From: a bacterium
GTDB taxonomy: Bacteria; JAHJDO01
NCBI GenBank assembly: GCA_030611945.1
Contig: JAUWOV010000054.1
Coordinates: 1-12,747, forward strand
Reading direction: 5' to 3'
DNA: 12,747 bases
In this document: piece by piece, positions 6,781 to 12,608 of the stretch
Position numbering within the stretch: position 1 is the first letter of the stretch
How the letters are laid out: every line of letters begins with the position of its first letter
Notes under the pieces: model-generated
What the model saw: only the letters and a program-made list of their open reading frames with translations
Database searches by the model: none
Told to the model about the DNA's origin: nothing
Made by a program: the position numbers and the translations under genes

Positions 6781-6873
6781 TTAGCTGTCGGGGAGCCAAA
6801 GAATACGAATGGCAGAATGACACGCGAGATTGCCACATCGTCCCGAAAGCATTCGGGACTCCTCGCAATGACT
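6781..6873 (-). repeat. Dispersed intergenic repeat, 'GTCATTGCGAGGA...GGCAATCTC' type
   Basis: The core (6826-6873), read on the minus strand, begins GTCATTGCGAGGAGTCCCG, contains a 7-base-pair hairpin (6841-6847 TCCCGAA with 6852-6858 TTCGGGA) and ends GATGTGGCAATCTC. A second module, GTCATTCTGCCATTCGTATTC (given in parts: GTCATTCTG, CCATTCGTATTC), follows to about 6801, and the region to 6781 is unassigned but probably belongs. I recognise the GTCATTGCGAG/GGCAATCTC pattern as a dispersed element of many uncultured and environmental bacterial genomes; that recognition is from memory. It fills most of the gap between pheS and dprA and has no convincing coding capacity. Confidence 0.75.
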
Positions 6874-6886
6874 GAAAATATCAAAC

Positions 6887-6913
6887 TTGTATTTTAAATT
6901 CAATTTATATAAA
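6887..6913 (+). promoter_or_regulatory. Weak candidate promoter for dprA-topA
   Basis: TTGTAT (6887-6892) and TATAAA (6908-6913) are 15 bases apart, just before the dprA ATG at 6923 and just outside the dispersed repeat. The -35 match is poor and the spacing short, so this is only the best available candidate in an AT-rich leader. Confidence 0.25.
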
Positions 6914-11108: not shown

Positions 11109-12572
11109 TTAATACTCTCCATTTATAGTTCTTGTAATTCTTAATCGCTCAAGTAGAGAACCTGTTTTGCCATATTCTCCTAAACTCAAGTCAGATACTA
11201 CTACTCTGCCAATATGCTTTTCTGTCTTAGATGACCACTTCCCTTCAACATATGCCCATGTGTCATGGATAACATAATAATTGCCGTTATCCTTCCCCAG
11301 GTAGAGCATTATATGCCCAGGCATGTAAAGAATGGATATTCCTGATGGAAGTTTTTCAAGAACATCTTTTTCTTGCGCGCCGGATCTATCAAATCTTGCA
11401 ACTTCCCTGCCTATTCTTGCTTGCCGGCTTGAGTTACGCGGCATCCTTATTCCAAAACACGCAAATATGTCCATTATGAATCTGGAGCAATCCCTTTCCC
11501 CTCTCATACCTCCCCAAGCATAAGGTGCGTGTAATAATTTAAAAGCCTGATTAATTACATTCCTTCTTGTATACAGAATATATCCTCTGTGCACATCCTC
11601 ATAAGCTGGTATATACGCTTTTCTAAAAGACAATTTATTTCTTTTATTTGCAACAGGAAACGTAATAATAAAGTGGTTTTTTTTGACGCTCATTAAAGGA
11701 AAGCGCGTTCCCATCTGCGCGCTATCAAGAAAATTTTTACACTTAGAATCAGAGAATATATCAATCTTATCACCTGTTACAACAATAAACTTTTGAGCTT
11801 CGCTATACTCAGTAATATCCCCCTTATTATCTGATATCGCAAGATCTTCAGCATAAATCCAACCTGAGGTAATCTCTGTTTTAACATATGCCCATTTCTT
11901 ATCTCTTGTCTCCCATAACAAAGCCAGAGGCTGCCCCACGTCAATAGCGCTGTCCTGGAATCTATCAAAATCACGGTTGTTTTTTCTGGACATAATAATC
12001 TCATCCGTGGGCAAGACGCGTAGGTTTGTCCTGCGAAGTGTGAGTCCAAACTTAACATTTATTTTGTCAGGGATTTTATTTAGGTCTATATTGTGGAATA
12101 TGGTTTCAAAAAACAAACTGTCAACCCGCATATTATCAGTTGTATACAATTTTCTTCTTTGAATACATTTAGTTGAATTTAGCATATTTTTAGATAATCG
12201 CTTGCCTGATATTGTATTATCTGTCCGGATTACTTTTTCTAGTATTCTTCCTCTCTCGTGGTTAGTTCCATTGAATTTTTCAATTTCCTCTGCAGACATT
12301 ATCACTTTGTCCGGATTATCTATCTTGGATATCCAATATCCAGGAGTGTGCATCTTTACTTTAACATGAGGCAAAGGATAAGGAGCTATGCAAAGCCTGG
12401 AAGCGCAGCCGGAGATAAATATTAAAAGCCAAATACTAAATCCGAATACCGAAATCCTAAACAAACTCAAAATTCTAATTTTCAAAATCCTAAACATTGT
12501 TTTTGTCATTTGTACTTTGGTCATTTGATATTGTTTCGTATTTAGTGCTTCGTGCTTAGAATTTGATTTCAC
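11109..12572 (-). CDS. NlpC/P60 lipoprotein with SH3-type domains (probable muropeptide endopeptidase)
   Basis: 487 residues from GTG at 12572. The lipoprotein signal ends in LIFISGC, with Cys56 the likely lipidated residue. Then come an N-terminal helical region (about 75-170), two bacterial SH3-like segments (about 175-245 and 255-325), and a C-terminal NlpC/P60 domain (about 335-485). Candidate catalytic residues are Cys362 in GERDCSRFIMDIF, His420 in YMPGHIMLYLG and His436 in YVIHD. This layout matches the N_NLPC_P60/SH3_6/SH3_7/NLPC_P60 family, gamma-D-glutamyl-diamino-acid endopeptidases acting on cell-wall peptides outside the inner membrane. The start is uncertain: a 55-residue leader is too long, no start has a good Shine-Dalgarno sequence, and ATG at 12497 (MFRILKIRIL...) would give a normal 30-residue signal. 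Residues 3-48 are encoded by a dispersed repeat. The oxidoreductase gene follows one base later. Confidence 0.85.
   Translation of the reverse strand: MKSNSKHEALNTKQYQMTKVQMTKTMFRILKIRILSLFRISVFGFSIWLLIFISGCASRLCIAPYPLPHVKVKMHTPGYWISKIDNPDKVIMSAEEIEKFNGTNHERGRILEKVIRTDNTISGKRLSKNMLNSTKCIQRRKLYTTDNMRVDSLFFETIFHNIDLNKIPDKINVKFGLTLRRTNLRVLPTDEIIMSRKNNRDFDRFQDSAIDVGQPLALLWETRDKKWAYVKTEITSGWIYAEDLAISDNKGDITEYSEAQKFIVVTGDKIDIFSDSKCKNFLDSAQMGTRFPLMSVKKNHFIITFPVANKRNKLSFRKAYIPAYEDVHRGYILYTRRNVINQAFKLLHAPYAWGGMRGERDCSRFIMDIFACFGIRMPRNSSRQARIGREVARFDRSGAQEKDVLEKLPSGISILYMPGHIMLYLGKDNGNYYVIHDTWAYVEGKWSSKTEKHIGRVVVSDLSLGEYGKTGSLLERLRITRTINGEY
11115..11120 (-). promoter_or_regulatory. Ribosome-binding site deciding the oxidoreductase start
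   Basis: Minus-strand GGAGAG, lying within the last codons of the NlpC/P60 gene, is 7 bases before the ATG at 11107. The alternative ATG at 11122 overlaps this site and has no Shine-Dalgarno sequence of its own. Confidence 0.65.
12429..12566 (-). repeat. Dispersed AT-rich repeat overlapping the lipoprotein signal peptide
   Basis: Low-complexity sequence built of related phrases, read on the minus strand: TTCTAAGCACGAAGCACTAA, ATACGAAACAATATCAAATG, ACCAAAGTACAAATGAC, TTAGGATTTTGAAAATTAG, TTTAGGATTTCGGTATTCGG, ATTTAGTATTTGG. Its two ends are roughly inverted relative to each other (CACTAAATACG near one end, CGGATTTAGTATTTGG at the other). I recognise this 'AAATTCTAAGCACGAAG...TTTAGTATTT' pattern from memory as a family dispersed in candidate-phylum genomes. 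Only one copy lies in this window, so the family assignment rests on recall. It is in frame with the NlpC/P60 gene and encodes most of its hydrophobic leader. Confidence 0.6.
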
Positions 12573-12581
12573 CTGTCATAG

Positions 12582-12608
12582 CCTATATTCTCAAGCCTTT
12601 ATTGTCAA
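12582..12608 (-). promoter_or_regulatory. Candidate promoter for the NlpC/P60-oxidoreductase pair
   Basis: A perfect minus-strand TTGACA (12603-12608) lies about 30 bases before the GTG start. The best -10 is TATAGG (12582-12587), with a 15-base spacer; TAGGCT at 17 bases is weaker. If the -10 is TATAGG, transcription starts close to the GTG, which would favour the downstream ATG at 12497 as the true start. Confidence 0.4.

Follow-up and report, generated by a model that had tools for sequence, protein, structure and literature searches.

The window, a stretch of 12,747 nucleotides that constitutes contig C44 of the source genome (G000; 1.66 Mb, 119 contigs), carries a minus-strand gene whose product is predicted to be an NlpC/P60 SH3 cell-wall peptidase. 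Both domains of the 487-residue protein scored above the Pfam cut-offs: PF12913 (SH3_6) at E = 9.5e-13 (47.9 bits, cut-off 27) and PF00877 (NLPC_P60) at E = 7.7e-10 (39.1 bits, cut-off 23). The comparison set within the phylum comprised four further species, all of the same genus (G001-G004). Orthologues of 82-85% identity were found in three of these genomes and a partial orthologue in a fourth. The G003 orthologue starts at a contig edge, and the comparison of N-termini covers G000, G001, G002, and G004, all of which share the lipobox. An Rfam search of the window returned no matches.

Table 1. Features of the lipoprotein gene and its upstream region (window coordinates).
Feature	Position	Strand	Remarks
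NlpC/P60 + SH3 lipoprotein gene	11109..12572	-	487 aa counted from GTG 12572
Native signal end, (W)LLIFISGC	12405..12430	-	Lipobox I-S-G-C; Cys codon 12407-12405, residue 56
Copy of the 134-bp dispersed imperfect-palindrome repeat	12431..12564	-	Encodes residues 3-48 of the NlpC/P60 protein
Right half of the element, encoding MFRILKIRILSLFRISVFGFSI(W)	12431..12497	-	Candidate start, charged n-region, and early hydrophobic core; same peptide at the N-termini of other exported proteins
In-frame ATG, consensus position 68	12495..12497	-	A-rich ACAAAAACA lies before it; G002 and G004 have this candidate start too
GTG candidate start outside the element	12570..12572	-	Lines up with the G001 GTG start; AGGTGAAA in both
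Promoter-like segment TTGACAATAAAGGCTTGAGAATATAGGCTA	12579..12608	-	Common to G001 (alignment by eye); putative promoter

A sequence-only reading of this DNA had placed a dispersed repeat at 12429-12572, translated as residues 3-48 of the protein. The residue range proved exact; the repeat itself accounts for 12431-12564, the remainder of the interval being the stretch that reaches to the GTG, along with a couple of bases of flank. The term dispersed was likewise apt. Specifically, the genome yielded 29 matches, the segment itself included, and 17 of the others are 82-90% identical to it over at least 122 bp; the genome as a whole contains 18-19 near-full copies and about 10 partial ones. When the copies were aligned with their flanks, their ends coincided (AAATTCGAAGCACG...CGGATTTCGGATTT), with AAATTCGAAGCACGAAGCACG as the left boundary and CGGATTTCGGATTT as the right, and the sequences parted immediately beyond. 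The repeat consensus folds as a DNA hairpin with a z-score of -3.4, and none of 200 shuffles folded as well. The window's own copy, at a z-score of only -1.2, is decayed.

The element was compared with the features of a MITE, namely a short (50-300 bp), multi-copy repeat that is too small for a transposase gene and has terminal inverted repeats. It is 134 bp long and occurs in about 16-28 near-full copies per genome, based on loci read in G000, G002, and G004. Its terminal inverted repeats are present but imperfect (AAATTCGAA.../...TTCGGATTT). No target-site duplication was evident by eye in the flanks of 18 copies, and the GspJ and amidase junctions show gained or lost bases. Elsewhere, the element's left half gives C-terminal tails such as KFEARSTKYETISNDQNTND followed by a stop (L010, L023, L020, L080, L092, and others), the stop codons of these genes now lying inside the element.

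The window contains other palindromic stretches. A second palindromic repeat, of 39 nt (CCCTCTCTT..AAGAGAGGGTTAGGGTGAGT), is present in two copies, at 1054-1092 and 1508-1546. PgpA and an adjoining short ORF each have a copy at their 3' end, from which they take their C-terminal TLTLS and stop; a stretch resembling this repeat occurs upstream of the L012 lipoprotein. Between pheS and dprA, at 6800-6890, another palindromic stretch (CGTCCCGAAAGCATTCGGGACTCCTCGCAATGAC) has the look of a dispersed repeat.

Translation of the lipoprotein gene has several candidate starts. Those in frame inside the repeat are ATG at 12524, 12509, and 12497 and TTG at 12485, 12470, and 12464. Outside it, upstream of the element, is GTG 12572, which could be the true start. 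A clear Shine-Dalgarno sequence is missing before the ATGs of the element, and GTG 12572 has no strong one, whereas G001 has AAAGGAG. A native start after the repeat was rejected: no in-frame ATG, GTG, or TTG occurs from the repeat end to the lipobox cysteine, the next being at residues 67 and 74. Thus, with any of these starts, the repeat supplies the n-region and, of the hydrophobic core, more than half. The top hydrophobic 15-mer is ISVFGFSIWLLIFIS, in which about the nine first residues are repeat-coded; LLIFIS and the remaining lipobox residues are native. The N-terminus was judged by eye as a lipoprotein (SPII) signal, for which we looked for a charged n-region, a hydrophobic core, and a lipobox of the form [LVI][ASTVI][GAS]C near the N-terminus; the predicted signal contains all three, as RILKIRILSLFR, ISVFGFSIWLLIF, and ISGC. 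The sequence-only reading had the repeat joined directly to a native lipobox, as is indeed the case: LLIFISGC is native-like, and repeat-coded residues precede it. As for its further suggestion, that the repeat either replaced or lengthened the original signal, the lipobox and the end of the core look native, and the repeat encodes the start region, the charged n-region, and the core's first half. The repeat as the source of a predicted secretion signal is supported, in that the segment is not single-copy and no usable start separates it from the lipobox.

The same proposal also fared well against the orthologues. In both G002 (MFRILKIRIPNLFRISDFGFRILFGIWILTFILISGC) and G004 (MFGILKIRILGLFRILLSIWILTFILISGC), the NlpC/P60 gene is fused in frame to the repeat's right part, the differences in length between these leaders and the window's MFRILKIRILSLFRISVFGFSIWLLIFISGC being multiples of 3 nt and hence whole codons. 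Both species have an unrelated gene end in place of the upstream GTG region, which is missing, and have retained the ATG-containing half of the repeat. The leader of G001 is short, at 25 residues (MKRILNLTFGFWILTFIFISGCASR), with a good Shine-Dalgarno sequence. Its DNA is somewhat element-like: 6 of 500 shuffles scored as well, and it is the top-scoring stretch of its contig. This signal may be a shrunken copy of the element rather than the pre-insertion state. As it could be either original or shrunken, the NlpC/P60 locus alone offers no certain empty site. TopA groups G000 with G001 and G002 with G004; with G003 as the outgroup, an old insertion that subsequently shrank in G001 would be the simpler history. 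The fused NlpC copies of G002 and G004 are 86% identical, as compared to 90-100%, and often 96-100%, for intergenic copies, and the fused copies were not consistently better conserved than the intergenic ones. Selection on the peptide sequence itself is therefore not claimed.

Fusions to other proteins were surveyed among the ORFs overlapping element copies, using the frame MFRILKIRILNLFRISDFGFRI from the ATG at consensus position 68. This frame runs without a stop into 11 conserved families: the NlpC lipoprotein, Amidase_3, a T2SSB/PilP-like lipoprotein (fusion MFRILKIRVLNLFRISDFLSLLCLCAFVTLCLLLSSGC), a PDZ-GGDEF protein, GspJ, a GspK-like protein, LysM-DUF4015, two more pseudopilins, PilM-PilN, and a PilZ-flavodoxin protein. 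Nine of them are exported or have a prepilin leader; the sequence-only reading had missed that at least eight further exported-protein families of the genus share this kind of fusion. A plausible start for the PilZ protein itself lies downstream of the repeat, and some pseudopilins, such as GspJ in G000, have possible GTG or TTG starts after the element.

Two of these leaders, those of GspJ and the amidase, exist with and without the element. GspJ is element-free in G003 (MKKG|FTLLELL) and G004 (MRKG|FTLLELL); in G000 and G002, the repeat directly precedes FTLLELL, and in G001 a different, GC-rich repeat stands in frame at the same point. The element-free amidase of G003 begins with MIKRVFIFAALILSA (leader also given as MIKRVFIFAALILSASCSAYCAP). 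In G000, the region of G003's start and upstream site is gone and the repeat is in its place, and in G004 a collapsed MIKAMFRI is all that is left. In the T2SSB/PilP-like lipoprotein, MTKTMFRI is kept in G002 and G004, and G001 has the GC-rich repeat. The LysM leader reads MFSILKIRILNLFRISILEFRILFSIWLLFGF in G004 (near-identical in G002), MFKILFSIWLLFGF in G000, and MNYTLVKKPFRILFIICLLFGF in G003. In-frame insertions are therefore present in conserved protein genes at many loci and missing from some orthologues, the pattern of an intragenic repeat like the Rickettsia palindromic element (RPE).

Two further observations concern these genes. The GC-rich sequence is itself a dispersed repeat (GCAAGCCCCGCCCCTACAAT...; L183 and L174 in G001, L181 in G000), and it is in frame in the G001 GspJ and PilP-like leaders, where other species have the AT-rich element. 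The sole trace of the element in G003 is at the PilM N-terminus (L169, G003:C44:1780-1826). Repeat-derived sequence is found in the PilM of G002 and G004 as well, and the trace marks an old insertion, in this case into a cytosolic protein of the pilus.

Fusion is biased toward exported proteins. Exported products account for 9 of the 11 read-through families versus 5 of the 45 families that have a same-strand upstream copy without fusion (Fisher p = 1.2e-5), the classes of the unfused families having been assigned by eye from hydrophobicity and sequence, a source of error. Several fused genes adjoin each other in one secretion/pilus cluster; the bias has p = 2.5e-4 with the secretion/pilus genes merged and p = 0.003 if multi-pass membrane proteins count as exported. 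Fusion was also more frequent in copies reduced to the coding right half (11/21) than in near-full copies (7/68), with a p-value of 1.2e-4 that is too small because orthologous copies in sister species were counted separately.

Beyond the genus, 25 of 380 genomes have relatives of the element, with identities reaching 85% over 133 bp. G210, from another lineage, contains at least 22 copies of the repeat frame (L194, L210, L223, and others). Their DNA identity reaches 85%, suggesting a horizontal or very broad spread of the repeat family. This genome was the richest outside the genus among those tested with the peptide, and no long in-frame fusion was found in it.

Based on these comparisons of sequence, our preferred reading, to which we assign a probability of roughly 0.8, is that a non-autonomous palindromic element inserted near the starts of genes and that in-frame insertions survived mainly in cleavable, sequence-tolerant leaders. 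At the window locus, a native lipoprotein gene would have acquired a MITE/RPE-like repeat by transposition into the space separating its promoter from its lipobox. In one of its orientations and frames, the right half of this repeat reads ATG-FRILKIRILNLFRISDFGFRI, a start codon followed by a positively charged, fairly hydrophobic stretch. Together with the residual native core and the lipobox, this stretch would form a plausible Sec/lipoprotein (SPII) signal, translated from within the element and removed after export, such that the mature enzyme would be unaltered. The native start and ribosome site may sometimes have been lost after insertion, and later in-frame deletions would have shrunk the leader, e.g., to MTKTMFRI. 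The element presumably recurs in the leaders of the genus because cleavable leaders (lipoprotein, Sec, and prepilin) tolerate N-terminal additions and cytosolic N-termini do not.

In a bolder version, which we advance as a tentative possibility, the widespread mobile palindromic repeat is a portable start-codon-plus-signal module: in this lineage, the leaders of lipoproteins, secreted enzymes, and pseudopilins would time and again have arisen from it or given way to it, and they would keep being remade through insertion and collapse in frame. That positive selection spread the element, or kept it at gene starts, for its start codon and n-region seems unlikely. The nine fused exported families, the enrichment of fusions among copies reduced to the coding half, and the G000 amidase, which lacks its native start and ribosome site, fit such selection. 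However, 61 of the 68 near-full copies are unfused, no long fusion was seen among the 22 frame copies of the distant genome, and the GC-rich repeat in the same G001 leaders points to tolerance of any in-frame insert. Tolerance is thus favored over recruitment, given the unrelated repeat, the unfused majority, and the lack of extra conservation of fused copies.

It is quite improbable, at the other extreme, that the repeat is a neutral passenger, a tolerated extension with no targeting role in a protein that starts at the native GTG 12572 and for which LLIFISGC and chance hydrophobicity suffice. The GTG and the flanking AGGTGAAA are common to the window and G001, the sequence conservation of the fused segment is low, and the RPE insertion in guanylate kinase, when tested, was judged neutral or slightly detrimental (PMC2229807). 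Against this, only WLLIFIS is left between the element and the lipobox, which is too short for a core, so that at least half of the core is repeat-coded; moreover, G002 and G004 are without the upstream GTG region yet retain the ATG-containing half of the repeat. Pure neutrality is disfavored more generally: on the predicted signals, the hydrophobic cores of several leaders could not exist as they now do without the repeat. A misassembly or binning chimera that joined repeat to gene is highly improbable: the genomes are fragmented and repeats break assemblies, but the repeat lies at the same gene, in differing variants, in three separately assembled species and is contig-internal in G002 and G004.

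The origin of new signal peptides is an open question. On our preferred reading, survival of in-frame insertions in cleavable leaders, the gain of a leader from mobile DNA and its erosion would be directly traceable, because element-free, full, and collapsed states coexist across five sister species. For annotation, N-termini of the FRILKIRIL type derive from a repeat, and caution is needed with start calls and signal predictions at such sites. Should the portable-module proposal be true, signal peptides would be evolvable sites at which mobile DNA preferentially docks.

Among known systems, RPEs are in-frame palindromic repeats found in many unrelated genes (Ogata et al.; PMC10969869, PMC2229807). 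By description, the element resembles them: both are dispersed palindromes of roughly 100-150 bp, in frame in many unrelated genes, with copies open in the frame used. RPE fusions are reported from a wide variety of genes, guanylate kinase among them, whereas those described here are N-terminal and concentrated in cleavable leaders of exported proteins. Coxiella QMITEs and ERIC/RU-1 are also dispersed repeats with in-frame fusions and C-terminal tails, as here, but the portions of those papers available to us describe no bias to the leaders of exported proteins (PMC5896051, PMC2759123). The direct precedent is the Yersinia RU-2 (YAPL) repeat in YPO1552. There, a predicted signal peptide of 41 residues has its residues 1-30 encoded by this MITE-like repeat, and relatives in other genera have unrelated signal sequences (Delihas 2007, PMC2759123). 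Our search of the open-licence literature turned up these precedents (RPE and RU) and no description of recurrent insertion into leaders. RU-2 is one strong case, as compared to about nine conserved families in one genus here, with element-free sister leaders for two families and collapsed forms for others. What appears to be new is thus the recurrence of the element in about nine predicted leaders, together with a visible series of gain and collapse.
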